Part shown: in pieces, positions 3,581-62,109 of the stretch
Position numbering within the stretch: position 1 is the stretch's first letter
Layout: each line of letters begins with the position of its first letter
Source: Odiellus spinosus
Taxonomy: Eukaryota; Arthropoda; Arachnida; Opiliones; Phalangiidae
Direction of reading: 5' to 3'
DNA length: 64,000 nt
Assembly (NCBI GenBank): GCA_963920705.1
Contig: OY987229.1
Coordinates: 20,961,728-21,025,727 of the forward strand
The notes under the pieces: model-generated
Told to the model about the DNA's origin: nothing
What the model saw: only the letters and a program-made list of their open reading frames with translations
Databases searched by the model: none
Translations under genes and position numbers: made by a program

Positions 3581-3587
3581 CCCCTAC

Positions 3588-4005
3588 CAGAGGTATATAA
3601 TAACCCCCTTCGGGGGGAAGTATGAAAGCCCCTATACTACCAATGCTAAAAATCACGAACAACAAGAGCCCGCTGCTGACTATCTAGGCCACTAGATCGC
3701 GCTGGACTTCTCAATGTCGCTACTCTAGTAAATGGTCTTTGTATAAACAAGACGGCTCGATTTGTGTTTAGAACTTCCTGTCTCAGGAGTCAGGCTGTCT
3801 GTTAAAATGGAGTCGAAGGTTGACTTCAGCTCGCGAGTTCCGGAAGTGCGCGTAGGGAAAATTTAGTGAGGTTCAAAATGGTGTAACTATTTTTTGGGAG
3901 TAAAGCGGTGTGTCGATCCGCCGCGATTTACGCCGGGCACTTGTTGTTCGTCGATTTTGCCTACCTTTCATACTTCCCCCCGAAGGGGGTTATTATATAC
4001 CTCTG
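3588..4005 (+). mobile_element. MITE family A, copy A1
   Basis: Non-autonomous inverted-repeat element, 418 bp. Termini CAGAGGTATATAATAACC... and its reverse complement, with about 40 bp of inverted repeat including a CCCCCTTCGGGGGG palindrome. Flanked by exact 7-bp duplication cccctac (3581-3587, 4006-4012). No coding capacity; the apparent ORF starting MGVKRCVDPPRF recurs in other copies and is not a gene. Confidence 0.93.
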
Positions 4006-4971
4006 CCCCTACCAAACACTGTTACCAATCGTTAAATATCCTCATAATTTTGGTAGGTTTGGGTAGCGACTTGATATTTAAGTTTCTCTCGTTGAATTGT
4101 CGAACGGGATGATTTATGATATTACTTAACTCTGACCCTGAAAATTAAGGGTTCATCATTTCTAGTCGCGTAAAATGTGTCTTCAACTTATGGCCTTTAA
4201 AACGACTCTTAATTAAGATTATCTAATTCCAGAATTAACGTTTCGCTCTCACAAGTAATTTTTTGTTTTATACTAAAAGTCCCATCTTGTTCAGCGTAGT
4301 GAATTATTTATATGAATTGGCAAAATTTTTGCAAAAGTAGTGCATTTAGCTCTTTAAAGACTAGAACCTTAAGCGACCCTTTTGTCTTTGATGTGCCCCC
4401 GGAGTCCCGGACAGAAGCGGAAAGGGAACCGTGTACCCGGGGAGTCTTAAGCCTTTTTTCCCTCTTTTTTAAAAGAAAAAATATCGGGAGTATGATGCAT
4501 TTTAACACGCACTTTCGATTTGGTCTCTACTATTTGAAAGCGATAAAAAACCTTCTTGTAATAGCGTTCACTATCTGTATAGAAATTCGACATCGACGGC
4601 GCCTTTCAGTGAAGTATGTAGATGGATTGGCTATGACTAAGAAGGGTATCCAATTGGCAAGAAGGTCGATGAACGATGTCTGTGTCTATAGAAACTATAC
4701 TATATTTGAGACATCGTAGTCTTAATGTTAATAGTTTCCAAATCTTCATCGAACGTCTGGCCAATTATATCGGTAATAACTAAAGGCTACTTTGAAAAGG
4801 CAAATATATATTAAGAATGGGTCTTAACACTTTGACTTCCGGTTTCGAAGTATTCTCATCACCTGTCACCCTCTTACTGACTTTAAAAATCCTTTTAAAA
4901 ATGGGGGTTTCGTATCGCGATGACCGTTATTTGGCGTTAAGCCTAAAAGGAAACCACACCGGATATTATAT

Positions 4972-5262
4972 CAAGAAAGATCAGACAAGGAGAGGAAAAG
5001 TGGGGACGGCGCAGTTCCTACTGCGTCGGCCTAAACTCCCACTCTGGGAGAACGGGGGTAGAGATGTTTCGTGGTAAAATGTTGTCACGTGGTTAAAACG
5101 GATCCTTTATCAGCTTCGTAGTAGCCAACGACGCTAGTGACCACGTGACAACAGTTTACCTCGAGAATTTCCTATCCCCCTTTCCACCCGAGTGGGAGGT
5201 TGGCTCTTCTCTCACTAACTCAACGCAGCCCTACTTTTCCTCTCCTTGTCTGATCCTTCTTG
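4972..5262 (+). mobile_element. MITE family C, copy C1
   Basis: Family C: about 280-290 bp, termini CAAGAAGGATCAGATAAGGA... with long inverted repeats. The centre contains facing CACGTG-bearing arms (ttgtcacgtgg / ccacgtgacaac), so the whole element can fold into one hairpin. Left terminus here is CAAGAAAGATCAGACAAGG. Exact 7-bp duplication attatat. Confidence 0.93.
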
Positions 5263-5531
5263 ATTATATACACCCTAATTTCTGTAGGGCCTAACTCTGG
5301 CTTTAAAGATGTGTAAAACGTTTTGGCAAAAGTGAATTAATATTTGTATTCTGGTTGTCATAACGATAAACACCATGAAAAGGGTAGGTACGGGTTGTAT
5401 ATAACTTATATACGGTTGGATATAACTTAAAAGACGCCCGATTTTAAGCCAAAATTGGCGCTCATTTTAGAGCGATAGGGGTTTCAAAAGAGTGAAATGT
5501 GTGCAGCTATAAAAATAAACCTACGTAATAT

Positions 5532-5937
5532 CAGATGTATATGATAACCCCCTTCGGGGGGAAGTATGAAAGCCCCTATACTACCAATGCTAAAAATCAC
5601 GAACAACAAGAGCCCGCTGCTGACTATCTAGGCCACTAGCTCGCGCTGGACTTCTCAATGTCGCTACTCTAGTAAATGGTCTTTGTATAAACAAGACGGC
5701 TCGATTTGTGTTTAGAACTTCCTGTCTCAGGAGTCAGGCTGTCTGTTAAAATGGAGTGGAAGGTTGACTTCAGCTCGCGAGTTCCGGAAGTGCGCGTAGG
5801 GAAAATTTAGTGAGGTTCAAAATGGTGTAACTATTTTTTGGGAGTAAAGCGGTGTGTCGATCCGCCGGGCACTTGTTGTTCGTCGATTTTGCCTACCTTT
5901 CATACTTCCCCCCGAAGGGGGTTATTATATACCTCTG
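5532..5937 (+). mobile_element. MITE family A, copy A2
   Basis: 406 bp, same orientation as A1. The left terminus has point changes (CAGATGTATATGATAA) and about 11 bp are lost near the right end. Exact 7-bp duplication gtaatat on both sides. Confidence 0.93.
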
Positions 5938-6940
5938 GTAATATCCAGGATCGGTACTACCAGTTAGTTTTTAAAAGGAAAAAAGGCCCTCGAAACTTTC
6001 CTTCGTGATAATATATATGGATGAGTCTATAAAAGCGCTGATTTTATAGCGTAATAACGTGTCCAAAGTACTATTGTAATCAGGAATAAACCGAAAGGAG
6101 TTGCCCCAATATTTCTTAAAATGAAGCTTTTTGTTTCTCAATTTCGTATAAGCAACAACTTCTCCAGCTGTTCTTGAAGCGGCGAACAAGCTGTCGTTGA
6201 ATTCGCTGCTATAGATGTTCCGGTTTCAGCTCCGACGAAGTAAAAGACGCGTTCGTACTTAGGTTTTATATTAGACCGAACATAAGTCTTAATTGGACAC
6301 AATTAAACTTAGATGACAGACCCCGTTTGGGAAAAACGTCACTGTGACGTCACTTAACAATGAACGAAGACTTAACTTCAATCCGGTTTAACATGTAAAC
6401 CGTCAAAACTAATTATCACCGTTTAGTTTTGACCTACAAAACTACCAGTATATTGTAATTTCGACTTATTATTTACAACCCTTTACCGCTACCCGCTGAT
6501 TACGATTAAGAAAAGGTAGTGCGAACGTAACTGCGGAGTCGAGCCGGAAAAATCGATGCGACGATATATGTAGGTAGACCTATAGCGCCGGCCCCGCCAT
6601 TCGCAAACAACCCCGATAGCAATCTGACATAATTTTCTTCCGCCCTCATATTCTACTTCCTCCTCCTCCTCCGTCTCTATTTCCGATTTCCTTCAACCGG
6701 GCTCTTGTTCCTCGACCTCTTTCGCTCTCGCCCTCCAGCTTATACCGCCAACTCCCGGTCCTACCGTCCTACCTAGCTCGAGGCATCGCCTTCGCCTATT
6801 TCGATCTACATGCCTGGCTGCTCCAATTCCCTCAAGTCATATATTATTTTCGAATCTTCGCGTTCTACCGCCATATACCCTTTCCGCCCACCCACCGACT
6901 GCCTCGCCTCCTCACCCTAGCAAAAGTACGAACAAATATA

Positions 6941-9909: not shown

Positions 9910-10664
9910 GTCTCGATTGATATCAAGGACCAAGTGGTCAAAGTTCTTTGGAATTAAAAGACCAGTAATTTGAAAACAAAATGAGATTATATTTCTTCCT
10001 TAGTTGTTAGTGGACATGCCTTCTTATTAAGTGTGCCCTTCCATTGGCCTAAATTTAGATCTAAGACCAGATGTAGCAACATCTTATGTCATATGGTTAG
10101 TCCTTGGGGTCATGGGACCAATAGAAGACAAAATAAAATGAGCAGATCTGTCTTTCCTAGTGGTTATTGGACATCGTCTGCTTATTTCATATATGCTCTC
10201 AATTGATATCAAAGACCAGTCTTTGCAATTAAGGGATCAATGGAAAGACATCGTCTGCATATTTGATTTTGTATTCCATTGATCTCTTGATGGACTTAAG
10301 CCGTTGAACCATTTATAAGTATTTAAGATTAGACCAATTTAAGGGAAAATAAAATAAGCAGACGACGTTAATCAAAGTACAAGGGTTACATTCCATTTAA
10401 AACTCTGATGATTCCTTTATTTCTTAACCGATTTTGATGTAATTGGTATCATTTTGGAGCTTACAATGTTCTCTATACGAATCCATTCTTATTTTAATAT
10501 TAATTTTTTTCGTCAAACTAACCCTTTTAAGTAACGAATAACGCGAGAGGGATGAAGTTAGCTTAAAAACGGGGTGCCCTTTTTTTGTCGTTATAGTCTC
10601 AAGGCTTTTATACAAAACGTCAGATTAGATCCGTACAATAGACAAGCCTCTATATATATATAAC

Positions 10665-11670
10665 CAAAAGTCTGATAAGACTTCATACAAAAAGTCCTTA
10701 ACTGGCGCAGGGGCCTGAAACGTGTTGTTTTCAGTGCTTTCCCCTTTCTACGCGTAGGCAGATATCTCTGTAAAGCGGCACCTAAAATCACGTGACTTTT
10801 GCGCCACTTCACCAAACATCTAATGAAATTAGTGGCTACGCGTTGCAAAAAGTAGTTCCCCCGGTTTTTACATATAAGACATCTTTTACCACTTTTAAAG
10901 TCATGGTAACAAATAAGAAATGAAATTCAAAGCAATTTTTCCGATAGAAAGTTTTTAAGTCAAGAATTAATTAGCAATATTAATTATTAAACCATTATTG
11001 GCCTGATTTAACCACATGAATCGCTGTTGGTTGTTTCACTATGTTCGTCTGCTGCATTGTTTTGGTATTCTCACCACTATGACTCCCAAAACTTTGTAAG
11101 TAAACCTATTTTACTTTTAAACTAATTTTAAATGAAATGTAATAAGTTTTTTGAACTATTGAATTGGGTTTGAATAAAAACTTTGAAATATCAATTATTT
11201 TCCTGATGCTAAGAAATGTTTAAGGAAACATCTTGATTTAAAAAATCGTTTAAAGACGTAACGCCCGAGTTTTAATCGTTTGTTTAAATTTAAGAAACCT
11301 CACTTCGTACTATTTAAACTTTTAAATCGCAATTAATCCTTTTTAAACGTTTGTTTACATTTAAGAAACCTCCATTCCCCGAAACTTGTCAATGTTTTAC
11401 TATCCTGCCCTTCCCGTGCACTAAGGGCCTTCAAGGCCCCTTGTACGTTGTCCCCCCTAATAAATAAATAAAGAAACCTCCCTTCGTACTATTTTCAGGA
11501 CTTCCGTATAACTCGCCTAGCTATTGGCTAGTTTTGAATTTAGCTATCTCGTTCTCATTGGGTGCTGTAGACTAGCGTCGTCTGCACTGTAAATTACATG
11601 TTTTCTATAGCCAAAGGAAGAACCGGGCGCCAGTTAAGGACTTTTTGTATGAAGTCTTATCAGACTTTTG
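10665..11670. mobile_element. Element G, 1-kb with perfect terminal repeats
   Basis: Perfect 43-bp-plus inverted repeats from CAAAAGTCTGATAAGAC... to ...GTCTTATCAGACTTTTG, separated by about 0.9 kb, with exact 7-bp duplication atataac (10658-10664, 11671-11677). The interior contains three degenerate copies of aagaaacctcccttcgtac (11290-11500). No transposase-like ORF. The first eight bases match family L. Confidence 0.85.
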
Positions 11671-12470
11671 ATATAACCTTATAAAAGACTGTAGAAAGGA
11701 TGGGTACGTTAAAAAGTTCGATAAAAATTTGCATATCGATGTAGGGGTCGCGGTGGCTTTGACTACCCTCTTCCACTTGTCCCATCCACCCCAGAATTCC
11801 TCCATTATTCTTCCTTTAATGAAACCAAGTAGCTATTCAAGTAACTATGGCTGGTGTTTTACTCCTGTTCAAGAGAAGTTGGCATAAAGTCGAAAACTGA
11901 GGCGGATTGATATACAATATTAAATCTTTTAGGAAATAAAGTAGTCCTCTTAAACACTCTTTAATATATACACCGCCCAAAGGAGCTAGTTTCGATTTTA
12001 GACCAGAAATGCAGACAATGCTGTATTCAAATTCCTCTAGGTATGTGTCACGTGACACTAAAAGTTAAATTGCCCCTATTTATATCCTACACATGAGACA
12101 TTGTGACACTGGTCTTATTCGCCCATGATTTATGGTTATTTTATTATTGCCAATGATGAAACTAAATTCCTTTAACCATATATGTCACGTGGTTTTAATG
12201 ACGACAATGCGAATAAATTCTTTGTTTGTGGTTTTATATTATCATAAGTGGATAATTTCTAAAGCTAGGTGAACTCGTACTAGAGACAAAGTTTAAAAAA
12301 AGGAATTCCATATTGATCAAATCAATTTTAAATTTTTTGACGCAAAATCTCTACAATTTACCCTCAAAGGTTTAGATTTTGACCTTTCCAAAACGTTTAA
12401 AAACTTGAAAGCTCATCCAAATTTCTCTTAAAAAGCGTATAGCGAAATGATACGGTTATTTCCGTATAGA

Positions 12471-12806
12471 CAGAAGCCGATGAAACCCTCCTTTGAAGTC
12501 TACTACTCCAATGTTCCATATAGCGCTCCTCTCTGTATGGGTAAAATTCCCAATTTTACGAGTTAGAAGGGGTCCTACTTCATCCCCCCTGTCTACGGAA
12601 AATTGGAAATTCTCTCTCTCCACAAACGACGACGTTTTTGGACGAACTCCAAGGTTGCTAGAGATATTCGTTCGACGAACTCCCGCTCCGAAAATATCTA
12701 CCGTTAGGAGGCGTACGAATCGCGCCTTTTGAAAATAACCCATACAGAGAGGGGTAGACAAGACCCGGGAGTAATAGACTTCAAAGGAGGGTTTCATCGG
12801 CTTCTG
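12471..12806 (+). mobile_element. MITE family B, copy B1
   Basis: Type description for family B: about 335 bp, termini CAGAAGCCGATGAAACCCTC... and its reverse complement, inverted repeat about 30 bp. The interior has short inner inverted repeats (ctctctgtatgggt / acccatacagagag) and a CTCTCTCTCC tract. ORFs starting MKPSFEVYYS come from this element and are not genes. Exact 7-bp duplication gtataga. Confidence 0.94.
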
Positions 12807-13269
12807 GTATAGATATATACGTTTACCGAGCAGTTATTATTAGATAAGAGCCTCAATTCTGTACGTCGGCCGCAGGATGATGGCCAGGGAACTCGCGTGT
12901 ACGAAATTGGGATTTATGTTGTAATTACGAAGCTTTGAATTCTGCCAATGACAGGTGCGCATTTAACTGACATTTAATTAAAGCCTGGGCCCTGGATGCA
13001 TGGGCAGCCCCTATAGCGAGCATCGCTAGCAAACAGAAACTGTCTTTGACTCTTCTGATGGACGTTCACCGCGAGAGGGAAAGAGAGGGGAGAGTCAGGG
13101 CGGAAAAAGAATTAAAAAAAGAAGAGCCGCTTGTCAAAATGATGTTTGCTATTCTAAGAATGAAATTTAGCTTCGAGCTGTCTTAGTATCAAACCTGCAC
13201 GCCCGTAAAATGACCATGTACGGACATAAAGAAGGTAACTGAAAATAACACGAAAATAACAATATAGTA

Positions 13270-16559: not shown

Positions 16560-16566
16560 AAAAAAC

Positions 16567-16904
16567 CAGAAGTAGATGAAACCCTCCTTTGAAGTCTACT
16601 ACTCCAATGTTCGATATAGCGCTCCTCTCTGTATGGGTAAAATTCCCAATTTTACGAGATCGGAGGGGTCCTACTTCATACCCCCCTGTCTACGGAAAAT
16701 TGGAAATTCTCTCTCTCCACAAACGACGACGTTTTTTTGACGAACTCCAAGGCTGCTAGAGATATTCGCTCGACCAACTCCCGCTCCGAAAATATCTACC
16801 GTTAGGAGGCGTACGAATCGCGCTTTTTGAAACTAACCCATACAGAGAGGGGTAAACAAGACCCGGGAGTAATAGACTTCAAAGGAGGGTTTCATCGGCT
16901 TCTG
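16567..16904 (+). mobile_element. MITE family B, copy B2
   Basis: Left terminus diverged (CAGAAGTAGATGAAACC). Exact duplication aaaaaac (16560-16566, 16905-16911). Confidence 0.93.
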
Positions 16905-17244
16905 AAAAAACATATTTCGAAATTTAAAGTCGATTATTATTTTTTATTTCCAGATACGTCGTTTTCATATTTTTTCAAGCGTGGACATTATCATCATTGG
17001 ATTTCTCTGAATATTTTATCAACGACAAAATCAAAAATAATTGGACTTTTTCACCGGCTACCAAGCTTCGAGATTTTCAAACGCGTAAGTACCATTATTT
17101 TTATCCTAAAATTGTATTTTTGTACTGGCGCCTTTTAGATTGGTGTTCGTAATTTTTGATTGAGTAATATTTGAAAATTGTTCTTACGTTTTTGCGTAAT
17201 ACTATAGTGTTAAGCTTACTTTGATTTAACAATGTGTGACTTAA

Positions 17245-19731: not shown

Positions 19732-20381
19732 AGGGAGAATGCAAGTGACCTTTTATCGATTTCTTGTCGTTTAAATAGGCTTAAAAATATCAAATATTAA
19801 ACTACAAATAAATTTAAAGCAAAATTTAACAAAATAGGCTTAGCTGGATTCATGGAGATCACCTTAACTTTCCCCTATAAGGACTACCGACCAATGACAT
19901 TGATTTATGGTTCTTATACGGAGAATGTGGGATCTCCATGATCAATCTTATTGGTTGCTTATCTTTATACTAGTTAGAGATATCTCCATGAATCCAGCTA
20001 AACCTATTTTGACGGTAAGCTTTAAATTAGTTTAATCAAGAAGGATCAGATAAGGAGAGGAAATGTGGGGCTGCGTTGAGTTAGAGAGAGAAGAGCCAAC
20101 CTCCCACTCGGGTGGAAAGGGGGGATAGGAAATTCTCGAGGTAAACTGTTGTCACGTGGTCGCTAGCTAGCGCGTCTCATAAAGGATTCGTTTTACCCAC
20201 GTGACAACATTTTACCACGAAACGTCTCTACCCCCGTTCTCCCAGAGTGGGAGTTTAGGCCGACGCAGTAGGAACCGCGCCGTCCCCACATTTCCTCTCC
20301 TTATCTGATCCTTCTTGGTTTAATACTGTGGGATTAGACCTATCGATAAAAAAAAATCACATTTTAGGTTGCATTCTCCCT
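19732..20381. mobile_element. TTAA-type inverted-repeat element D1
   Basis: Termini AGGGAGAATGCAA and TTGCATTCTCCCT are flanked by TTGA (mutated TTAA) on the left and TTAA on the right. Inner inverted arms are aataggcttagctggattcat and its complement at about 19990. C2 is inserted in the right arm. TTAA targets fit piggyBac or Kolobok-type transposition, but no transposase is present. Confidence 0.82.
20037..20317 (-). mobile_element. MITE family C, copy C2 (nested in D1)
   Basis: 281 bp, exact duplication gtttaat (20030-20036, 20318-20324). It interrupts the right arm of D1. Confidence 0.93.
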
Positions 20382-23152: not shown

Positions 23153-23168
23153 ATTATTATATATTATT

Positions 23169-33945: not shown

Positions 33946-33998
33946 TACTACGTTTCCACGTGATTCGGGAAATCTAAACTCGTGGAGGTGTGTCATAC

Positions 33999-37127: not shown

Positions 37128-37465
37128 CAGAAGCCGATGAAACCCTCCTTTGAAGTCTATTACTCCCGGGTCTTGTCTACCCCTCCCTGTATGGGTTAGT
37201 TTCAAAATGCGCGATTCGTACGCCTCCTAACGGTAGATATTTTCGGAGCGGGATTTCGTCGAGCGAATATCTCTAGCAGCCTTGGAGTTCGGCAAAAAAA
37301 CGTCGTCGTTTGGGGAGAGAGAGAATTTCCAATTTTCCGTAGACAGGGGGGTATGAAGTAGGACCCCTCCGATCTCGTAAAATTGTTAATTTTACCCATA
37401 CAGAGAGGAGCGCTATATCGATCATTAGAGTAGTAGACTTCAAAGAAGGGTTTCATCTACTTTTG
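37128..37465 (-). mobile_element. MITE family B, copy B4
   Basis: Full length, right terminus diverged (CATCTACTTTTG). Flanks aaaccag and gtaaatc do not match. It abuts the relic fourth glycosyltransferase start at 37112, so a deletion or recombination probably removed the downstream gene and one duplication. Confidence 0.9.
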
Positions 37466-39412: not shown

Positions 39413-39965
39413 ATAGGTTCTAATCCACCAGTAAAAAAAACTTACAAACAAATATTAAAACTAGAAATAAATTTAAAAATAGGCTTAGCTGAATTCAAGA
39501 TGATACTGAATTTATTCGTATTGATGGGTCAGCAATGAGCAAAGACCCGTCGTTAAGACGAGATCTCAATGAGATGATCTATTGATCGTCTCATTGAGAT
39601 CTCGTTGCTGACCCATGTGAAACCATGAATCCAGCCAAGAAGGATCAGATAAGGAGAGGAAAAGTGGGAACGGCGCGGCTCTTACTGCGTCGGCCTAAAC
39701 TCCCACTCTGGGAGAACGGGGGACAGACGGGGGTAGAGATGCTTCGTGGTAAATTGTTGTCACGTGGGTAAAACGAATCCTTTATGAGACGCGCTAGCTA
39801 GCGACCACGTGACAACAGTTTACCTCGAGAATTTCCTATCCCCCCTTTCCACCCGAGTGGGAGGTTGGCTTTTCTCTCTCTAACTCAACGCAGCCCCACT
39901 TTTCCTCTCCTTATCTGATCCTTCTTGATCCAGCAAAGCCTATTTTCAGGGTAAGTTTTAGACAT
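39413..39965. mobile_element. D-family element D2, partial, with C3 nested
   Basis: Carries the D interior (ctaatccaccagtaaa, ctagaaataaatttaaa, aataggcttagctg) and the returning arm (aaagcctattttcagggtaag) after C3. Its centre at about 39556-39608 is a near-perfect hairpin built from gagatctcaatgagatgatc and its complement. The outer AGGGAGAATG termini are not recognisable. Confidence 0.72.
39636..39927 (+). mobile_element. MITE family C, copy C3 (nested in D2)
   Basis: 292 bp, exact duplication atccagc. The target lies inside the inner inverted repeat of D2 (gaatccagc...), splitting it. Confidence 0.93.
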
Positions 39966-42250: not shown

Positions 42251-42268
42251 TAGACTAGTACGTTTACC

Positions 42269-42606
42269 CAGAAGCCGATGAAACCCTCCTTTGAAGTCAA
42301 CTACTCTAATGTTCGATATAGCGCTCCTCTCTGTATGGGTAAAATTCCCAATTTTACGAGATCGGAGGGGTCCTACTTCATACCCCCCTGTCTACGGAAA
42401 ATTGGAAATTCTCTATCTCCACAAACGACGACGTTTTTTTGACGAACTCCAAGGCTGCTAGAGATATTCGCTCGACGAACTCCCGCACCGAAAATATCTA
42501 CCGTTAGGAGGCGTACGAATCGCGTTTTTTGAAACTAACCCATACAGAGAGGGGTAGACAAGACCAGGGAGTAATAGACTTCAAAGGAGGGTTTCATCTA
42601 CTTCTG
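42269..42606 (+). mobile_element. MITE family B, copy B6
   Basis: Exact duplication gtttacc. Lies just after the right part of L3. Confidence 0.93.
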
Positions 42607-43499
42607 GTTTACCTGATAGTATTAGACTTTTGTTTATATATATCAAATTATTATTATTTTTAGCGTAAAATGGGAGATATTATAAACTCTATTAAGAACC
42701 GTAACAGCTATAACGTATGTTTTTTTATTCGATGGAGCTAGCGCGGAATATTTTCCATAAGAAAATATTCGGAAAAATGTTCAACTGGTGCTTTTTTCGG
42801 GGTAGAAATATCTTTTGAGGAGGAAATGTAGAGAGGAGAGAGAGAGATCGATAACGTGGCTGGGAGCTGACGGGTATGTGTGGCTATATTGATACGCCGC
42901 TAGCTGCTATCCGCTTGAGGGAAAGGTTGAGGTCGATGTGTGCCAGAGAGAATGAGGGGAGGAGGATGGAGCTTACTTGGCCGGAACGAAAAAGAAGACG
43001 GACGGACGCCCGCTAGGATTACGCTTAAGCTTTTTTCGACATTTCGACAAGAAGCTTCAATCCACTCGCCAACCGACGATACTTAATCTCTCTTTTTCCC
43101 TCTCAATCTTGTCTCTCCAAGTTGCAAAAATCTTTTCCGTTTTATTTCTGGGAAAGTAAAAGCTACCTTTAGGTTATCGGTTACTGTTCCCAAATTCAAT
43201 ATACCTATAACTTAATCACCCTTTAACTGTTATGGATACCATTTTTAAATATTGAAAAACGTTTGACGAAACGAATTCTATAATTATTTTGAGTTAGAAA
43301 AAAATATAAGGAGTCCAAGGTTTCCATTGATTCGCGTTTTCTATTGGCTGTTAATTGTAATAACGCCCCTTGATTGGTTACAATTCTTCTATAAGGAGCT
43401 CGAATGAATGAAACGAAAAGGATCGTGCGTTTTTGTCTATTTAAAGCTAGCCATATTAAAAATTTCACGCGTTTCTTAAGAAACTTAAAAATATATTTT

Positions 43500-43665: not shown

Positions 43666-44437
43666 TTTTATTTAAAAAATTACTTTTGTATGAGATGAAT
43701 ATATATTTTGAATCAACTTATTTATTATTTGGCCGGTAAATTTTGATCATGAAATTGAAGTCCATCTTTTATACTCTTAATTTAAATACTAGCAGTTTTA
43801 ATTAGCCACAATTTAAAACTATTCTAAGCCAAATATAATTTTTATGTAAATCGTTGGGTTAGTCAAAGTGAAATTTGAATAATTTTCAAAAATGATAACT
43901 CGCGAAATAGAGGGGGTGTGGTTGCGGGGTAAGCTAGGTATCGTCAATTACGATTTGATAAAACTTTTCCCTCAAAAGTTTTAGCGAGCGGAGAATTTAT
44001 GCTGATTCGCCCATTAGGCTTTCATTTATGTCCGAAAGAATAACAGAAAAGCACTCTAGCTTGAATTTTAAGCTCGAATGGCTAGAGTAATTTAGGCTCT
44101 GCAAATTACACGATTCGAGCGCTTCTGAAATTTAATTAGGTTAGTAAAAATCAATAATTCTAAGCCGGCCGGCTCCTGGGTAGCTCAGCGTATCCCTCAA
44201 AAAGTCCTCAATTTTTAAAAACTAGCAAAAATGGGAAGATCCGGTGGGTTGGGCCCCGAACCACACGTTTCTTTTTTTCTAACATTGGTATTTCAAATTT
44301 TTTAGGCTATTTTAAAGGATAGGTTTCGTAAAATAATATAACTTTTTGGCTAGTTTTAAGTGATGGGCGTATGTTTTTAAATTTTTTGAAGGGAGACTTT
44401 CATCCTCATCTCTGTGACGTCACTTGATTAATGATAG

Positions 44438-44775
44438 CAGAAGCCGATGAAACCCTCCTTTGAAGTCTACTACTCTAATGTTCGATATAGCGCTCCTCTC
44501 TGTATAGGTAAAATTCCCAATTTTACGAGTTAGAAGGGGTCCTACTTCATCCCCCCTGTCTACGGAAAATTGAAAATTCTCTCTCTCCACAAACGACGAC
44601 GTTTTTTTGGACGAACTCCAAGGCTGCTAGAGATATTCGCTCGACGAACTCCCGCTCCGAAAACATCTACCGTTAGGAGGCGTACGAATCGCGCCTTTTG
44701 AGAATAACCCATACAGAGAGGGGTAGAAAAGACCCGGGAGTAATAGACTTCAAAGGAGGGTTTCATTGGCTTCTG
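44438..44775 (+). mobile_element. MITE family B, copy B7
   Basis: Exact duplication atgatag (44431-44437, 44776-44782). Confidence 0.93.
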
Positions 44776-45464
44776 ATGATAGGAGTAAAAATCTCATCTG
44801 GGTGACGTCGTACTCGTTTTTCTAATTTTGATAAATTTCTTTGACGCCCCACGAAAAGTTGTATTTCAATACCTTGAAAAACAAACGTGTTTTTTTTACT
44901 AGACTTAGCCTTTAAGTAAAATTATTCAAAAACGTGTTGTACGTGGTAAGAAAGAACCTAATCTGGAGAAATTCCACCATTTTCTACCAATTTAACTTTT
45001 AAATTTTGCGCTCAACTTAGACACAAGTATGTAGATATTTTTTTATCTTCAAAAAAGAAAGTTTAATTTAATTTAAATACAAAAGTGTTCTATGGTTTTT
45101 TTTATTTTATTTTTTATTTTTTCCAAGAGTAATGGTTTTGTACCAAAGTTAGAGTATAATTACAAATTTTTAAATCGAGTTTAGAATTTAATTTATTAAT
45201 TAGTAATTTATCTTTAGAGGTAATAACGGATTTGAAAGTTTGAAAAAAAATTGGAATTATTTTACTACATTTTATTTAAATGGTGTAAATTTAAACAGGG
45301 GCTTGTTTAAGGACTTTAAAAAGATGGTGTCAGCCCGCGCATATTGGTTGAAACAAATACGACACTAATCTAAACATTGAATGTTGTTTTCCAATTTTCC
45401 AATTTTCTTCCAACCACTTTTAAAAATATTAAAATTTTTGCGTATGTTACTAACTATATAGAAT

Positions 45465-45803
45465 CAGAAGCCGATGAAACCCTCCTTTAAAGTCTATTAC
45501 TCCCGGGTCTTGTCTACCCCTCTCTGTATGGGTTAGTTTCAAAAAGCGCGATTCGTACGCCTCCTAACGGTAGATATTTTCGGAGCGGGAGTTCGTCGAG
45601 CGAATATCTCTAGCAGCCTCGGAGTTCGTCAAAAAAAACGTCGTCGTTTGTGGAGAGAGAGAATTTCCAATTTTCCGTAGACAGGGGGGTATGAAGTAGG
45701 ACCCCTCCGATCTCGTAAAATTGTGAATTTTACCCATACAGAGAGGAGCGCTATATCGAACATTAGAGTAGTAGACTTTAAAGGAGGGTTTCATCGGCTT
45801 CTG
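45465..45803 (-). mobile_element. MITE family B, copy B8
   Basis: Exact duplication atagaat. Lies about 120 bp downstream of the lectin-like gene's stop codon. Confidence 0.93.
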
Positions 45804-45924
45804 ATAGAATGCAATGCGCGCGAAGTTCCACGTAAAGGGATAACTTTTCTGTTTCGCGATTTGTAAAAAAAACTTTAATATACTTACCTCAAAAAGGGGG
45901 GAGGGGCTAGTAAATATTGTTGCT

Positions 45925-48849: not shown

Positions 48850-49186
48850 CAGAAGCCGATGAAACCCTCCTTTGAAGTCTATTACTCCCGGGTCTTGTCT
48901 ACCCCTCTCTGTATGGGTTAGTTTCAAAAAGCGCGATTCGTACGCCTCCTAACGGTAGATGTTTTCGGAGCGGGAGCTCGTCGAGCGAATATCTCTAGCA
49001 GCCTTGGAGTTCGTCAAAAAAACGTCGTCGTTTGTGGAGAGAGAGAATTTCCGATTTTCCGTAGACAGGGGGTATGAAGTAGGACCCCTCCGATCTCGTA
49101 AAATTGTGGATTTTACCCATACAGAGAGGAGCGCTATATGGAACATTGGAGTAGTAGACTTCAAAGGAGGGTTTCATCGGCTTCTG
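48850..49186 (-). mobile_element. MITE family B, copy B9
   Basis: Flanks gctatat and gcaatat match at 6 of 7 positions, consistent with an ageing duplication. Confidence 0.9.
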
Positions 49187-52107: not shown

Positions 52108-52443
52108 CAGAAGCCGATGAAACCCTCCTTTGAAGTCTATTACTCCCGGGTCTTGTCTACCCCTCTCTGTATGGGTTATTCTCAAAAGGCGCGATTCGTA
52201 CGCCTCCCAACGGTAGATGTTTTCGGAGGGGGAGTTCGTCGAGCGATTATCTCTAGCAGCCTTGGAGTTCGTCCAAAAACGTCGTCGTTTGTGGAGAGAG
52301 AGAGTTTCCAATTTTCCGTAGACAGGGGGGATGAAGTAGGACCCCTCCGATCTCGTAAAATTGGGAATTTTACCCATACAGAGAGGAGCGCTTTATGGAA
52401 CATTGGAGTAGTAGACTTCAAAGGAGGGTTTCATCGGCTTCTG
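52108..52443 (-). mobile_element. MITE family B, copy B10
   Basis: Full length with intact termini, but flanks gttatat and ttatcgc do not form a duplication. Confidence 0.9.
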
Positions 52444-52474
52444 TTATCGCTAGTTTTATTAATTTTTAAAATAA

Positions 52475-52625: not shown

Positions 52626-54449
52626 GAACCTTAAACTTTGGTCAGACATCAAGAGATTATAATTGGGCCAATCATCGGGAAGCTTTTATACGCGATAGAG
52701 ACTTCAAAGAACCTAAAAATTGGGTCAAGGCTTAAGGAAAATTGGGCCCATCATCTAGTACTTAAATTTTACCAGACGTTGAGAACTTAATAAAAATTCT
52801 AGGACCCCAAAATAAGTCCGGATTATTTTCAACGTGGTATTTGCCTTTAATTTAAGTGGTAAATGAAAAGCCGAAAACATTTCCCGCCTTATCTGTTATA
52901 TATATAGCAGAAACACAATCAAAAGTGATTTATGAGTTGTCAACCGTATATGTCGCGTTTTAAACCTCTCCCTTTGTATAAACCTACCACCAGGCACTCC
53001 GCAAGAACTTAAGCCTAACGACCAGGGTTTGCGAAGGAGAGAGATCCTATAAAGGCATTAATTGTTGCCACCATCCCCTCGGTAGTAATGGTTCATGGCG
53101 AATTTTTCGATTTTTCTTTGGCCAAAACAGATGTTTTAATTGGAATGTTTAAAATAGCGCCAACCAATGACAGAACGTCAGGAAACTTGGGAGACGTTAT
53201 AAATTTAATTAATCAGTTATTTTTCGTTTTTACTTCTCCGGCTTCGTGCCATTTCCGGAACAGGAACCGCTCAAGAGAAAAGAGAATAAATATATACTTC
53301 AAAAAAGTTACTTTTTAAATCTTCCGAACTACTTTTATTTTACGGGGCTTTAATATTAAGTATCCCTTCGCCGTAGTTTCGCGACTGGTTCGCTGGAATT
53401 CAAATTTGTTTCCAAAAGTTTTATTTATTCCGTTGAAAATTAATTGTCTCGTTTGTTTTATTCAATTTTATTTTTCGCTAAAACTTGCATTTTATATTGC
53501 GTTTTATCCCAAAGAAAAATTCTGTAGACATTTTTCTCCATTCGAAAATTTGTAAAACTGTTTACAGAAAAATAGTTTTTGAGGAATTTTTAATTTATTT
53601 ATATAATGATATAAATGTCGTATTTAAAAATAGTTTCTGCATATTTTCAGTAATATTTATTATTGTAATAAATAATGTAATAGCCCATGCAGTTGAGCCT
53701 GGTATCTCTCATCCAGGTCAGTACAATGATCCAATTGAATGCGCCATCCGAGGGGTCAAACACTTGAGAACTTAGGGTGTTCAAAATGTTTGAACTCTTT
53801 GCACTACCAAGTCTGGACTCTTGAGTTCAGCAAGAGTTTGAACTGTTTGCATTATCAAAGCCAGACTTGCGTGAACTCAGGTGTACAAGAACATCAAGAG
53901 TGACGTCCCTCTCGGCGCCATCCCATCAGGAATTTTGGGAATTCTTTTTTTGATATTGAAATTTAAAGCATCTGGTCTTTTGCATTAAGATCAATGGATA
54001 ATAAGACAAGTTAAAATTAGCGCAATATATTCGTTGATTAATTAGTAACTTGAAGAAACATCTGAAGTTAGGATATGGTCCGTATTCCAGCTCTTTAAAT
54101 CTCATGGGAGATAAAAATAATTTTACAGTTAGGCGTGAAGTTACTTGTTAAATTGATATATTGCCCCATGATTGACGTTGCATTAGTGTAAGCTTTATAT
54201 TCAAAGGATTAACCCTTACAATAAAGCTTTCGAATTATGCCGAGTTTTCATCACGTCCACGTCCGAAGTTAATTTCTCCCCTTAGATGAATATTGTAAAG
54301 GAATAGTAATACCTTACTTTTAACTCCATATTAATACTTAAAGGATTATCCTTAAAAATGTCCCACAATCGATTTTCTAAAGAGAGGTATATTATTTAAA
54401 AATGCTTTTGAATTTGTTTTCAAAATCTTCACGCAAACATTATAATTAC

Positions 54450-54787
54450 CAGAAGCCGACGAAACCCTCCTTTGAAGTCTACTACTCCAATGTTCCATAT
54501 AGCGCTCCTCTCTGTATGGGTAAAATTCCCAATTTTACGAGTTAGAAGGGGTCCTACTTCATCCCCCCCTGTCTCCGGAAAATTGGAAATTCTCTCTCTC
54601 CACAAACGACGTCGTTTTTTGGACGAACTTCAAGGCTGCTATAGATATTCACTCGACGAGCTCCCGCTCCGAAAACATCTACCGTTAGGAGGCGTACGAA
54701 TCGCGCCTTTTGAGAATAACCCATACAGAGAGGGGTAGACAAGACCCGGGAGTAATAGACTTCAAAGGAGGGTTTCATCGGCTTCTG
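54450..54787 (+). mobile_element. MITE family B, copy B11
   Basis: Left terminus CAGAAGCCGACGAAACC; exact duplication taattac. Confidence 0.93.
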
Positions 54788-55444
54788 TAATTACGAAAGT
54801 TCTTGACAAGATCACGATGAAACTATCTCTTGAAGAGATTGATTGGATACTATACGCTTTTGTAAAAGCCGATTTTAAGCCGTTACATCCGTACCGAATA
54901 AGCTTATGCGAACGAGATTTTCCTCCCGGATTGTCTTTTGGTCTTTTGACTGGCGCGATGAATGGCTAGCTACGACTACGAGCCCAGTTGGTCGTTGAAT
55001 AGACGAACGGACCTCCTCCCAAGATAAAATTGAAGCAACCCGTAGCCGCCGATAGAGGGAGTTATCCAACAAGATGATGGATAGAGGGTTCGCGACCTTC
55101 CTCACTGAAAGAGACTACCCTTAATTACGCGCATAAATTTAGTTTCTAAAGAGATCAAACGATTTAGAATGCTTAAATTTACCCCTCTACTCCATCGTAC
55201 ACACCCCGTTTTCAGCAGCCTTTTATATAAACATAATGGAGAAATTACGCCACCATATAATTACTTAATAAATGGTGCCATTTCATCGCTAATAAGTTTT
55301 ATAATCTCTTTCAAAATGGAAAGAAAAATTGGGTTATTTTTCATAGATTCATCAAAAAATGAGCCACAGATGTGTTTAACTTATAGTACGTGTAGTAAAA
55401 ACCAGCTCACTAGGAATGCTTTTTATTTTTACATTTAGAACTAG

Positions 55445-55863
55445 CAGAGGTATATAATAACCCCCTTCTGGGGGAAGTATGAAAAGTAGGCAAAATCGAC
55501 GAACAATAAGTGCCTGACGTAAATCGCGGCGGATCGACACACCGCTTTACTCCCAAAAAATAGTTACACCATTTTGAACCTCACTAAATTTTCCCTACGC
55601 GCACTTCCGGAACTTGCGAGCTGAAGTCAACCTTCGACTCCATTTTAACAGACAGCCTGACTCCTGAGACAGGAAGTTCTAAACACAAATCGAGCCGTCT
55701 TGTTTATACAAAGACCATTTACTAGAGTAGCGACATTGAGAAGTCCAGCGCGAGCTAGTGGCCTAGATAGTCAGCAGCGGGCTCTTGTTGTTCGTGATTT
55801 TTAGCATTGATAGTATAGGGGCTTTCATACTTCCCCCCCGAAGGGGGTTATTATATACCTCTG
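55445..55863 (-). mobile_element. MITE family A, copy A6
   Basis: 419 bp, opposite orientation to A1, exact duplication gaactag (55438-55444, 55864-55870). Confidence 0.93.
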
Positions 55864-56342
55864 GAACTAGTATTATTATACTCACCACCTCTCGTAAGGG
55901 GTAAGGTTTGCTTTTAACTTGTAAACCTAGGATCCACCACTTTTCTTAAATAGTTCAAACTTTTCATTTAACTTTGTATGCATCGTCAAATCTTTTGGTA
56001 GACCTTGTAAGTGTAGTAAAATTTGTGACACCACTTATAGATAGAAAGTTTACATTTAACCAAGGATTCTGTATGTAGAATGATCTGAATTGGTAGCCTT
56101 TCCACTCTTCATAGTAAGCGTGCCAATCGAATTCTAGCAATTTTGAGAGATTGTAAAGACGCTACAGGACTTGTTCCGTGTAAATTACTGAAATTTCACA
56201 CCTAAAAGTTGTTATACTAGTCTTCAAGCGGAGTTTGCAATGCCTTTATGCGAGTTTAAACATTGCTTATCAAACCCCCTGCACAGATTTTGCAGACTTG
56301 TCTTGAACATGTTTAAAACTTTTAATTTTGTATACATCAAAC

Positions 56343-56659
56343 CAGAAATAGATGAACCGAAATTATCAACGAGCTATTCCTCTAACGCCACAGGCAAGTT
56401 CTCCGTTTCCCCTCTCTTAGACGACAGTTGTAGCCCCCTCCCCCGCGGAATTTCGCCTAGCCGAGAAACGTTGAATGCGCCACCTGGCTTGGTTTGCAGC
56501 CGTCGCTACGTGGGGCGATCAGTTTCCCAAGATCCTCCTCGGTATTTTATTGAGGCCGAGGAAGCCCATTCCCCCAGTGCTTACCCTCCCCATTCACTCC
56601 AAATAAAATGCATTTCCCAATCTAAGCTCTCGTTGATAATTTCGGTTCATCTATTTCTG
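56343..56659. mobile_element. Element O, inverted-repeat MITE
   Basis: 317 bp with termini CAGAAATAGATGAACCGAAA... and complement, about 34 bp of inverted repeat, and exact 7-bp duplication atcaaac (56336-56342, 56660-56666). The interior is richer in G+C and is open for 143 codons from 56240, but that frame runs across the element's left boundary and is not a gene. Confidence 0.88.
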
Positions 56660-57291
56660 ATCAAACCTTAATTAAGTGAAATCACAAACTTTTGTCGTCA
56701 AGATCTTCCACTTTTAATCCTTTCTTGAACTCCTTGGGAATGATGGGAATTTTAATTAAGTTCTCTTAATCTCATATGGTAGTAATTACCATAACTAAAT
56801 AATATTTTCTAGATTAAAAAAAATTGAATAGAAACGAAATCACATCCGTACTAGACTCGCCTACTGTAGAACAACAATTATTTTTAATTGCTTCGGGTGA
56901 AAAAACACGAGAACCGAATAGGTATATAATTAATTAAAATAATAATTTTATCGTGTAATTGCTAAGGGAAATGGCGCTTTCAACGCGCCCAGAGAAGCTA
57001 TGCCCATTTCTGAAAGTACACTCGCGGAGTAATGGCATTGGCTCCGAGCGGGCAAGACGAACGAACCCAATCTCTCCAGTTAATGAGAAACAGTACCTTA
57101 GAGATTTCCGCAGCTTGACTTTTCTCTAATTGTTTTTTATTTTTATTTTGGCCCCACTCTTCTTCCATCTCTTTCCACATTTGCTATTTACTTTTTACTA
57201 TTGTTGGATGAAATGGAAGGGGTGAGACCTTCCTGGTACGACTGTGGCATATATAAATATATCGGCACCAAAGACTTGAATAAGATGATGA

Positions 57292-57629
57292 CAGAAGCCG
57301 ATGAAACCCTCCTTTGAAGTCTACTACTCTAATGTTCCATACAGCGCTCCTCTCTGTATGGGTAAAATTCCCAATTTTACGAGATCGGAGGGGTCCTACT
57401 TCATACCCCCTTGTCTACGCAAAATTGGAAATTCTCTCTCTCCACAAACGACGACGTTTTTTTGCCCAACTCCAAGGCTGCTAGAGATATTCGTTCGACG
57501 AACTCCCGCTCCGAAAATATCTACCGTTAGAAGGCGTACGAATCGCGCTTTTTGAAACTATCCCATACAGAGAGGGGTAGACAAGACCAGGGAGTAATAG
57601 ACTTCAAAGGAGGGTTTCATCGGCTTCTG
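57292..57629 (+). mobile_element. MITE family B, copy B12
   Basis: Exact duplication atgatga. Confidence 0.93.
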
Positions 57630-57777
57630 ATGATGAGAGTAGATGTTTTGTGTTAGTAGTGTAAATTGGGAAGCGCATCTTCTGTGATAAAGATAATTTG
57701 ACACTCTGGATTTGAAGTACATTTTAACCAGTTTTAAAAGTTACTCGGGAAATAGGGGAGATCCTTCCATGACTTAA

Positions 57778-57938: not shown

Positions 57939-58608
57939 TTAAGGTTTAGAACAATACGTTATGGTCACCCCCAAGGGTTATTATTTAGGCTTAGCGAATC
58001 AATTCCCAATATCATATATAACTTAAGTTTTCCCCCAAAACCCTGTAACTTTGTCTGTACAAAAATACCCCTACAAATAATGATGTAATGACGTAACCTG
58101 TTTTTTAAAGCGTCCGTGGAAAAGTAACTTTTTACGCGTAGACGCGAGGAAAAGTAAAGGTGCGTAGAAAAAAAAAGTAAGAAAGCAATTATACCTAAGT
58201 CAAGTTGGGGTATCCCCAAAGGTGCCCTTCTAATTAGCCGGAGAAAGCTTCCTCCATTCCATCACATTTAGCTCGACTGGCCAACCTATTCCCAGCCCCT
58301 ACCTTCAGCCATTGGGCTAGTTCTTTCTTTCTATACTCGAGTTCAAAAGAAGGCAATTACTTTTTCCCTTATGAAAGTTAATATAATGAATTAATCCGCT
58401 CCAGTATCGGTTCTTTTGTCAACACCTCTTCGAAAGAAGGTTTATAATTTGAAACAAAGATGGTGGAAACACAGGAAACTCTTATATTAGCGCGATTAAA
58501 CAGAAAAAATCAACAGAAACTCTGGACTTTTAAATTCCCTTTCGATTTCCCTCGCATTCTTTTGAGAAATTAAAAAAAGGGGACATATTAGTAATGACAA
58601 ACTTAAAC

Positions 58609-58943
58609 CAGAAGCCGATGAAACCCTCCTTTGAAGTCTATTACTCCCTGGTCTTGTCTACCCCTCTCTGTATGGGTTATTCTCAAAAGGCGCGATTCGT
58701 ACGCCTCCTAACGGTAGATATTTTCGGAGCGGGAGTTCGTCGAGCGAATATCTCTAGCAGCCTTGGAGTTCGTCAAAAAAACGTCGTCGTTTGTGGAGAG
58801 AGAGAATTTCGAATTTTCCGTAGACAGGGGGGATGAAGTAGGACCCTTTCTAACTCGTAAAATTGAGAATTTTACCCATACAGAGGAGCGCTATATCGAA
58901 CATTGGAGTAGTAGACTTCAAAGGAGGGTTTCATCGGCTTCTG
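58609..58943 (-). mobile_element. MITE family B, copy B13
   Basis: Exact duplication cttaaac. Confidence 0.93.
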
Positions 58944-58989
58944 CTTAAACTCAAAACTAATCCACGTATAGCCCCAAACCTAATTCATC

Positions 58990-59590: not shown

Positions 59591-59800
59591 AAGGAGGATG
59601 CAACCTAACCATTTTAGCGATTCCTCATGGTTTAAATAGGCCTAATCCACCAGTAAAATAATTTACTAACAAATATTAAACTAGAAATAAATTTAAAACT
59701 TACCATCAAAATAGGCTTAGCTGGATTCATGAAGATCCTTGACCAATGATCAAAGACCTGTCGTTAAGGCTAGATCTAAATATTGCTTTTTAAAAACACT
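59591..59800. mobile_element. D-family fragment D4
   Basis: Left half only: AAGGAGGATGCAACC after TTGA, then ctaatccaccagtaaa, aaacttaccatcaaaatagg and cttagctggattcatg. No returning arm is seen. Confidence 0.7.
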
Positions 59801-59965
59801 GGTCCATAGTTCCCAATATGAAAAAATCTGGTACCAATAGCTTCCCAATAATGATTATGATTTTTCATGTTTTTACGCCTATCCTAACCACTTTTGGCTT
59901 TATAAACCCCACGTCACAGAATCTTTTAAAAATATACTCTTTGTGCTCCGTTTAATGAACCTTAT

Positions 59966-60303
59966 CAGAAGCCTAGGAAACCCTCCTTTGAAGTCTGCTA
60001 CTCTAATGTTCCATATAGCGCGCCTCTCTGTTTGGGTAAAATTCCCAATTTTACGAGATCGGAGGGGTCCTACTTCATACCCCCCTGTCTACGCAAAATT
60101 GGAAATTCTCTCTCTCCACAAACGACGACCTTTTTTTGACGAACTCCAAGGCTGCTAGAGATATTCGCTCGACGAACTCCCGCTCCGAAAATATCTACCG
60201 TTAGGAGGCGTACGAATCGCGCTTTTTGAAACTAACCCATACAGAGAGGGGTAGATAAGACCAGGGAGTAATAGACTTCAAAGGAGGGTTTCATCGGCTT
60301 CTG
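59966..60303 (+). mobile_element. MITE family B, copy B14
   Basis: Left terminus CAGAAGCCTAGGAAACC; exact duplication accttat. Confidence 0.93.
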
Positions 60304-60998
60304 ACCTTATTAATAATTCAAATATTGTTAATTCTCGGAATCTTTATTAGCTCATGTCATTACAAAAAAGGGGGAGATTTGAATGGACAAGTCATAAATC
60401 TCCTCGTTGAAATCCATTAGATTCTTCCGACCGCGATTCTTTCAACTTTCTTTAGAGGAAAAAAGAGATTACTAGGTTTTTATCAATTTAAAGTCTTTAT
60501 TCTTATTGTCTTTTCCTTTGTATAAAGGAAATCGTATCTTTTACGCGAGAGAAAATTACATTTATTTTTAACTGTTTTAAGATTGGTCATAGTACGAAGA
60601 TTTGCCGAGAAATTTGGAATTTATTGGGTACAAAAGAACCGGTTTTCCGCTCTTTAAATAGAGGATTAATAATTGCAAAATAAAACCATTGATAATATTA
60701 TGAAACGTCACTTGAAAATATATTTGAAACTAGGACACTTATCTCACCATGTGTGGAAGAGAAATCGTCATGTGACGTTACACAAAATAAAAGGGGTTAA
60801 ACGCCTGGGTTTACGGGGATTCAATCCACCTGGTGGCTCTTTTCCTTACTCGATCACAGGGGGCGTGTACTTTTGCATCTGACGTGATGAAACCATCAAA
60901 GATGATCGAGAAATTTCTCAAAATTTGTGGCGTTAATTTCCTAGGCTTGAAGTTGTTTTTTGCCGTCCCTCTCTTCAAGATTCAAAGCTCGATAAAAT

Positions 60999-61280
60999 CA
61001 AGAAAGATCAGATAAGGAGAGGAAATGTGGGGCTGCGTTGAGTTAGAGAGAGAAGAGCCAACCTCCCACTCGGGTGGAAAGGGGGGATAGGAAATTCTCG
61101 AGGTAAACTGTTGTCACGTGGTCGCTAGCTAGCGCGTCTCATAAAGGATTCGTTTTACCCACGCGACAACATTTTACCACGAAACGTCTCTACCCCCCGT
61201 TCTCCCAGAGTGGGAGTTTAGGCCGACGCAGTAGGAACCGCGCCGTCCCCACATTTCCTCTCCTTATCTGATCCTTCTTG
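60999..61280 (-). mobile_element. MITE family C, copy C4
   Basis: 282 bp, exact duplication ataaaat (60992-60998, 61281-61287). Confidence 0.93.
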
Positions 61281-62109
61281 ATAAAATATAATAAAATTTT
61301 AAGGTTTGAAATGGCAACTATATTTCATGGAGATTCAGAGCGCTTTATAGTAAGACACTTAGCGACAAAGCGCGGGTGTTATACGTAAGGTCGAAGAGCG
61401 CTTTGTCGCAATGAACCTAACCCTTAAAATATCCTGAAACTCTATGTAATGAAGTTTAACATAACCTTAGAAAAAGATGCATTCCTGCAGACGACGTAAC
61501 TTCATTTTTTTCGCCTTAATGCGTGGTTTTTAAGAAATAAGGTTTTTCTAGAAAAATCTCTCCAAAACGATTCCCGGCGGGAGTGCTTAAAGATAATCTT
61601 CATCAATGTTTCCAGGCTGCATTCTTCAACCATTATTTTTTTTTTTTTTGGCGCAATTTTTTTCGTATACCCCTTTATGTTTTGTTGGCTCTTTCTCGTC
61701 TTAAAGTAGCACGATGGAAGGAAAAAAGTAGTTTTTTTAGGGTTTGATGCGGGATGTAGGTCACGGAATGAGTGGCGATAAATCGTTCAAATGTGTAACA
61801 CTTAAGAAGAGGTAATGCGAAATCAATAAATCCGACTGTAACACCTGTGACCGCCAACCAGAAGGGATCTTTCTCGACATCCGATTCGCGTCATCTTTCA
61901 AAAGCAAATTGTTCCTTTTCCCCATCCCCTCGTCCTTATTCCCCGACCGACAACCTTTTCATACGCGACCCGATTGCGGGACACGGTGATAAAACTTTAT
62001 TTCAACAAGTTGCGAGACTACATTTTCGAATTTTAATCTTCCTTGTCGTTTATTTGGTCGTAACCTTTCTAGATCCATCCCTGCCATAACGTCCATCTGT
62101 CCCATTATT

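Follow-up and report, generated by a model that had tools for sequence, protein, structure and literature searches.

P-type transposons with 7-bp target duplications as the probable movers of several miniature element families in Odiellus spinosus

Which transposase moves several families of miniature inverted-repeat transposable elements (MITEs) that have unrelated interiors, CA...TG ends and 7-bp target duplications? This question is raised by a stretch of 64,000 nucleotides from Odiellus spinosus (assembly GCA_963920705.1, contig OY987229.1, positions 20,961,728 to 21,025,727), which is called the window in this work. The initial annotation of the window proposed one active, perhaps poorly described, transposase group that serves at least seven such families. 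The findings in this work indicate that the window MITEs were probably moved by P-type transposases, and that their masters probably belong to a clade of P elements that make 7-bp duplications and carry a second, convergent gene. Family C shares its ends with a P element locus (L055) of the same genome, while the P assignment of families A, B, M, O, L, and I is indirect.

Ends and target duplications of the window elements

The window was scanned for exact direct repeats of k bases that flank inverted ends, with at least 12 of 14 end matches and element lengths of 80-2500 bp. The scan at k=7 gave 23 matches, 22 of them with a CA start. The other match (52279-54615, CG...CG) is an artefact that falls within the interiors of two B copies. 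The scan at k=8 gave five matches and only one CA start, the CAGGG element at 16090-16327, whose 8-bp duplication serves as an internal control of the window. CA-start matches at k=6, 7, and 8 were absent from five first-order Markov resamples of the window. The 22 elements belong to families A, B, C, M, and O, and all exhibit CA...TG ends and exact 7-bp duplications, which confirms the pattern described in the initial annotation. The terminal inverted repeats (TIRs) of the window elements are 31-44 bp long, and the MITE interiors are unrelated between families. The elements and their target site duplications (TSDs) are listed below, with the identity to the two ends of L055 for family C.

3581..4012, + strand, MITE A copy: element 3588-4005, TSD CCCCTAC
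5525..5944, + strand, MITE A copy: element 5532-5937, TSD GTAATAT
29988..30389, + strand, MITE A copy: imperfect TSD (5/7), GTATAAT/ATATTAT
31733..32137, - strand, MITE A copy: element 31740-32130, TSD CTAAAAC
33992..34423, + strand, MITE A copy: element 33999-34416, TSD GTCATAC
55438..55870, - strand, MITE A copy: element 55445-55863, TSD GAACTAG
12464..12813, + strand, MITE B copy: element 12471-12806, TSD GTATAGA
16560..16911, + strand, MITE B copy: element 16567-16904, TSD AAAAAAC
33044..33395, - strand, MITE B copy: element 33051-33388, TSD GTTATAC
37128..37465, - strand, MITE B copy: no TSD found
40692..41043, + strand, MITE B copy: element 40699-41036, TSD ACAAAAT
42262..42613, + strand, MITE B copy: element 42269-42606, TSD GTTTACC
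44431..44782, + strand, MITE B copy: element 44438-44775, TSD ATGATAG
45458..45810, - strand, MITE B copy: element 45465-45803, TSD ATAGAAT
48850..49186, - strand, MITE B copy: TSD 6/7, GCTATAT/GCAATAT
52108..52443, - strand, MITE B copy: no TSD found
54443..54794, + strand, MITE B copy: element 54450-54787, TSD TAATTAC
57285..57636, + strand, MITE B copy: element 57292-57629, TSD ATGATGA
58602..58950, - strand, MITE B copy: element 58609-58943, TSD CTTAAAC
59959..60310, + strand, MITE B copy: element 59966-60303, TSD ACCTTAT
4965..5269, - strand, MITE C copy: element 4972-5262, TSD ATTATAT; L055 ends 88.7% over 133 bp and 85.4% over 157 bp
20030..20324, + strand, MITE C copy: element 20037-20317, TSD GTTTAAT; L055 ends 84.6% and 89.1%
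39629..39934, - strand, MITE C copy: element 39636-39927, TSD ATCCAGC; L055 ends 86.2% and 81.3%
60992..61287, + strand, MITE C copy: element 60999-61280, TSD ATAAAAT; L055 ends 84.5% and 87.6%
10658..11677, + strand, non-autonomous element O: element 10665-11670 (1006 bp), 44-bp perfect TIR, TSD ATATAAC
56336..56666, + strand, MITE M: element 56343-56659, 31-bp perfect TIR, TSD ATCAAAC
32727..33050, no strand assigned, probable element L: element 32734-33043, imperfect gapped CAAAAGT TIR, exact TSD GTTATAC in common with the adjoining B copy
38287..38615, no strand assigned, element I: element 38294-38608, CAAGAATC TIR, TSD 6/7 (AAATTAG/ATATTAG)

Exact 7-bp duplications flank 5/6 copies of A, 11/14 of B, 4/4 of C, and the single O and M elements, and the counts for A, B, and C are the same as those first reported. 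The remaining A copy agrees at 5/7 bases, and the other B copies agree at 6/7 bases (one copy) or have no duplication (two copies). Element L is taken to be the element that was initially named L2. Six window families (A, B, C, M, O, and L) have exact duplications, so that of the seven or more families claimed at first these six stand, whereas I reaches only 6/7 as the seventh and the element named G was not located. GTTATAC is also present three times at 32727-33395, spaced by two different CA...TG elements (L and B), and one of the two seems to have inserted into the duplication of the other.

The duplication is 7 bp and not 8 bp with a fixed base because the bases just outside it vary among 23 elements. 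A precedes the left copy in eight, C in five, G in five, and T in five elements, and the right copy is followed by T in eight, C in six, A in five, and G in four. The 8-bp duplication with a fixed base, which had been named as the result to look for against the 7-bp claim, is ruled out by these bases. Ten copies of A and O fetched outside the window extend the tally: nine have exact 7-bp duplications, one agrees at 6/7 bases, and none has an 8-bp duplication. First-look searches of the genome gave 1,430 candidates for A, 365 for M, and 117 for O. The best 40 of the 117 O candidates that were scored are 98-100% identical, and the best 40 of the 365 M candidates were scored at 100% (rounded). 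The identity between copies points to very recent bursts of O and M, in agreement with the activity proposed for them.

P elements of the genome and their second gene

The host genome (443 Mb, 286 contigs) was searched with the Pfam family TNP-like_RNaseH_N. The best 150 of 386 candidates were scored, with a best expectation value (E) of 1.9e-39, and the same family had no match in 14 control genomes. A non-random set of 19 P loci of 7-9.4 kb was read, selected because of their long open frames, their copy number, or the length of their domains. P proteins were not found within the window by tblastn with seven queries.

L055 exhibits C-type ends on both sides, where C positions 7-131 align at 85% and positions 154-281 at 89%. 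All four window C copies match both ends of L055 over 128-157 bp at 81-89%. L055 also encodes a THAP domain at 1662-2024 (E 1.6e-10), RNaseH_N (PF21787, E 2.9e-24), and the GTP-binding insertion (GBD, PF21788, E 1.6e-14), and its open reading frame (ORF) matches the solved P transposase 6p5a (E 9.8e-8). Judged from sequence, family C is a deletion derivative of a P element because L055 has C-type ends on both sides together with P transposase domains. The features expected of the P superfamily, namely THAP, RNase H with the GTP-binding insertion, common ends, and duplication length, were all found for C and L055, where the 7-bp duplication is present at 4/4 C copies and at the relative L062. 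A whole C copy was also identified within locus L058 (8063-8335).

An autonomous element with the termini of the MITEs, which the initial annotation had suggested should be sought, was identified for C in the form of L055, but none was identified for A, B, M, O, L, and I in the loci read. Searches of IMG/VR with the end of A and with the P alignment A2 gave nothing usable. A bacterial contig (L001) with 21 bases of the end of B is a probable chance match, as the contig has 68% guanine plus cytosine and only an 11-base match to B besides.

Readable ends and duplications were obtained for 9/19 P loci, as follows.

L051: CA...TG ends, 7-bp TSD CTCCAAT, two-gene clade
L060: CA...TG ends, 7-bp TSD CTAGACC, two-gene clade
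L061: CA...TG ends, 7-bp TSD GTTAAAC, two-gene clade
L062: CA...TG ends, 7-bp TSD CCCTGCT, two-gene clade
L056: CT ends, 7-bp TSD GTAGAAT, two-gene clade
L042 and L045: CG ends, 7-bp duplication, one gene, outside the clade
L043: CA ends, 8-bp duplication GTTATAAC, outside the clade
L044: CA ends, 8-bp duplication GATGTGAC, outside the clade

Convincing ends were not found in the stretch read for another 9/19 loci, and L055 has ends and no duplication. All five readable duplications in the clade of L055 are 7 bp, and four of the five elements have CA ends. L062 was picked as a clade member (core L036 in the tree) before its ends, duplication, and second gene were read, and all of them fitted. 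The duplication of L043 is its own reverse complement and could belong to the inverted ends instead, whereas that of L044 is not. Because the nine readable loci give both lengths, the P superfamily of this genome makes both 7-bp and 8-bp duplications.

A single transposase for all MITE families is unlikely because the P elements in the clade of L055 each have their own ends, so that a separate P-type master is probable for each MITE family. We infer that the masters of A, B, M, O, L, and I belong to the same clade. The idea of one transposase group is thus retained in part: the duplications and the CA...TG ends point to one kind of transposase, but hardly to one enzyme. The group is most likely the P superfamily, in which 7-bp duplications are already known for 1360 and Galileo (PMC3276498, PMC4168063).

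In 10/19 loci, the strand opposite the transposase has an ORF that converges on it tail to tail and matches the second-gene profile. The loci are divided as follows.

Two genes, second gene on the opposite strand (10/19): L040, L041, L050, L051, L055, L056, L059, L060, L061, L062
One gene, C-terminal domain on the transposase strand (7/19): L042, L043, L044, L045, L052, L053, L054
Neither arrangement found (2/19): L057, L058

All two-gene loci lie inside the clade of L055, and all same-strand loci lie outside it. The FastTree tree was constructed from 37 cores, where identical cores were merged and L033 was left out as it has no open frame over the match. All two-gene loci fall on one side of a split with a support of 0.998. 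By sequence, L057 and L058 group with the two-gene loci, and the CG-ended, one-gene, 7-bp L042 and L045 are nearest across the split.

Two profile hidden Markov models (HMMs) were built, HMM 'two' from L029, L040, L041, L050, and L051 and HMM 'one' from L042, L045, L052, L053, and L054. Loci that are members of a profile match their own HMM by construction, and L061 is the same place as L029. The second ORFs that are independent of the profile match with E values of 3.6e-7 (L055), 6.1e-5 (L056, the weakest), 7.6e-29 (L059), 3.4e-49 (L060), and 3.1e-13 (L062).

It is likely that these loci represent a clade of two-gene P elements that has expanded and was active recently, in which the C-terminal (THAP9_C-like) domain has moved to its own convergent gene, and in which transposition needs, or is regulated by, two proteins, one per end. 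The second gene might otherwise be an unrelated passenger and not a piece of the transposase, which we regard as rather unlikely. The homology between second-gene proteins and same-strand C-termini is distant (hhalign probability 83%, 77 columns, 10% identity, with L055 pieces excluded from the profile), as a passenger gene would predict, but its E value is 8.5e-6, whereas five column shuffles gave 0.44 or worse and the reversed profile gave 0.2. The two profiles also cross-match, where HMM 'one' matches the opposite-strand ORFs of L059 (E 1.1e-6) and L041 (E 3.0e-5) and HMM 'two' matches the same-strand C-terminus of L044 (E 4.3e-4). A passenger would further be consistent with the absence of any Pfam family above cut-off in the six second ORFs scanned (L051, L055, L041, L050, L060, and L061), where L050 has an NSUN5 match under the cut-off (E 0.0065), and with the PDB profile search of the second-gene alignment, which gave no P transposase and only weak matches of other names (best E 0.059). 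On the other hand, none of the 12 clade loci read has a same-strand copy of the domain at E 0.01 or better.

The same-strand C-terminus of L045 weakly resembles Pfam THAP9_C (E 0.0042, below cut-off), whereas that of L042 does not. The sequence pattern around the last catalytic acid is present on the transposase strand in 6/10 two-gene loci and 3/7 one-gene loci, and Pfam RNaseH_C was identified on the transposase strand in L041 and L061. The second gene of L056 starts with its own THAP exon (7416-7715, - strand, E 2.2e-10), and for this reason both proteins of L056 could bind the element. A THAP-like ORF opposite the transposase was also observed in the one-gene locus L054 (1198-1455, + strand, E 1.2e-7) and is a candidate part of that element.

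Target sites, alternative explanations, and neighbouring features

Among the 22 window insertions, 16 duplications have T as the second base and 18 have A as the sixth. Both bases occur together in 12 insertions, where 2.2 would be expected, and none of 20,000 random draws reached 12, a figure that flatters because the choice of positions followed inspection of the data. The first base is R in 18/22 and the last base is Y in 18/22. T also occurs two bases outside the left copy in 17/22 and A at the mirror place in 15/22. The window insertions, nine other genome copies, and five complete P elements together (n=36) have T in 28, A in 28, R in 27, Y in 29, and all four in 15. The reported targets are GTTNAAC (7 bp) for 1360, GTCCGGAC (8 bp) for P, and GTNCGNAC (8 bp) for the hAT element hobo (PMC3276498), and GTANTAC (7 bp) for Galileo (PMC4168063). 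Compared to 1360 and Galileo, the window duplications have the same length and a similar, not identical, target. Families A, B, M, O, L, and I were examined for a 7-bp or 8-bp duplication and a palindromic GT...AC-like target, and both were found, with I at 6/7. The target motif fits the P superfamily, but taken alone it would also allow a hAT variant.

Several findings weigh against the P-type origin of all these families. A link by sequence to a transposase exists for family C alone, and the ends of A, B, O, M, L, and I were not found on any P element in 19 loci read in depth and 30 short loci (from 386 candidates). A 97-bp B fragment adjoins L042 but lies outside its P element, and matches of 15-16/20 to the A end in the L043 family sit inside the element and not at its ends. 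L055 itself has a rearranged left end with no matching flanks and no intact duplication, and the ends of L056, another member of its clade, are CT and not CA. Only 9/22 window insertions have the full RTNNNAY motif. The T two bases outside the duplication resembles the hAT element Tol2. The hobo target has the same T and A positions (PMC3276498).

The last two findings belong to an alternative, where A, B, M, and O (not C) would represent a hAT lineage that duplicates 7 bp and is moved by hAT transposases, and only C is P-derived. We consider this unlikely. The ends of hAT elements also start with CA, the CAGAGGTATA of family A resembles Tol2 ends, and the window has a CAGGG element (16090-16327) that we take to be hAT-like. 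That element has 8 bp, however, and the 8-bp duplication expected of hAT contrasts with 7 bp in all 22 exact window cases. Only family A has the G that the hAT end consensus carries at position 5. An example command in a Repbase paper filters hAT entries by '7-bp TSD'. In contrast, the two-gene P clade exhibits exactly 7 bp in 5/5 readable duplications and CA ends in 4/5.

A new non-P superfamily that serves A, B, M, and O, with convergent likeness to 7-bp P elements, is very improbable: these families have no direct transposase link and their interiors are mutually unrelated, but they match the abundant P clade of the same genome in duplication length, end dinucleotide, and similar target preference. 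Dada, which the initial annotation had brought in as a candidate for its duplications of 6-7 bp (PMC3706591), can practically be discarded, since Dada elements have another transposase, lack TIRs, and insert into small nuclear RNA or transfer RNA genes (PMC3706591), whereas the elements here have 31-44 bp TIRs and varied targets and the relative of C encodes a P transposase. Transfer RNA genes were not found in the window by a scan with bacterial settings.

Other features of the window were also observed. The CAGGG element (16082-16335 with flanks) has CAGGGACGG ends and the 8-bp duplication CTAACTAC, and a relative of it lies near the left end of the P element L055 (95.7% over 140 bp). An inverted-repeat element at 9647-9918 has CTAGGTTAGCAAAGAGACA-type ends and 9-bp direct repeats GTCTCGATT and is perhaps Mutator-like. 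Two inverted A copies at 29988-32130 form long inverted arms 1.4 kb apart, and the space between them contains a (GTTAG)n tract (31076-31250), a TTAGG-type repeat that would suggest an arthropod host. An alpha-1,4-glycosyltransferase-like gene is present in three copies (32223-33924, 34867-36814, and 40079-41593). Gly_transf_sug was identified in 3/3 first exons and Gb3_synth in both second exons scanned, 33304-33921 and 40082-40621 (the remaining second exon is 36251-36811), and the first and third genes have B copies between their exons. The protein encoded at 45928-46710 weakly matches a ricin-type lectin, with a score that falls just short of the Pfam cut-off. Several long tandem arrays, whose units measure 24 to 173 bp, are located at 531-1315, 13279-14384, 17267-18189, 21295-22345, 26063-26535, and 28226-29098.

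Proposed mechanism and known systems

In the mechanism that we propose, a P-type transposase (THAP, RNase H fold with GTP-binding insertion) would bind the ends through THAP and excise the MITE at its inverted ends. The MITE would then be joined to a palindromic target that tends to RTNNNAY with a 7-bp stagger, whose fill-in would leave the duplication. MITEs that keep the ends would be mobilised by the P-type transposase. The masters would be the P clade of this genome, whose elements mostly combine 7-bp duplications with CA...TG ends and whose C-terminal domain would be encoded by a gene that runs tail to tail against the transposase gene. This second protein would presumably be expressed from the other end of the element and would complete the transposase in trans or regulate it, in which case both proteins would be made and would take part in transposition.

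The elements here have THAP, RNase H, and the GTP-binding insertion in common with the Drosophila P element and THAP9. In the Drosophila P element and THAP9, a single gene encodes the transposase on one strand, C-terminal domain included, whereas the transposase here is probably split between two convergent genes; Drosophila P also makes 8-bp duplications. MuDR of maize has two convergent genes, but it belongs to an unrelated transposase class with 9-bp duplications, so that two convergent genes in one DNA transposon are only an analogy of layout. We know of no second convergent gene in 1360 or Galileo, and the clade here differs from them by this gene. The 1360/Hoppel and Galileo elements of Drosophila are similar to the elements here in the P-type transposase, 7-bp duplications, and palindromic target (PMC3276498, PMC4168063), and Galileo has long TIRs (PMC4168063) compared to about 31-44 bp in the MITEs here. 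The P-MITEs of Anopheles gambiae are also similar in having two P element ends and several families per genome, with MITEs younger than their masters, but they and their P elements have 8-bp duplications, and their 5-310 copies (PMC1562414) compare with the first-look candidates of O, M, and A given above. P elements with a convergent second gene were not found in reports of the open-licence literature. The split two-gene layout may be new, whereas P-derived MITEs and 7-bp P elements were already known.

MITE families that might have been taken for a new superfamily are drawn closer to the P superfamily by these findings, in one case firmly. One genome can have P elements that make duplications of 7 bp and others that make 8 bp. 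The findings also point to a split-gene architecture within this classic group of transposons. What role the C-terminal domain of P transposase plays is still poorly understood. If the two-protein P system is true, that role would become testable by adding or omitting one protein. The near-identical MITEs beside P elements with long open frames would offer a place to study a recent P invasion.

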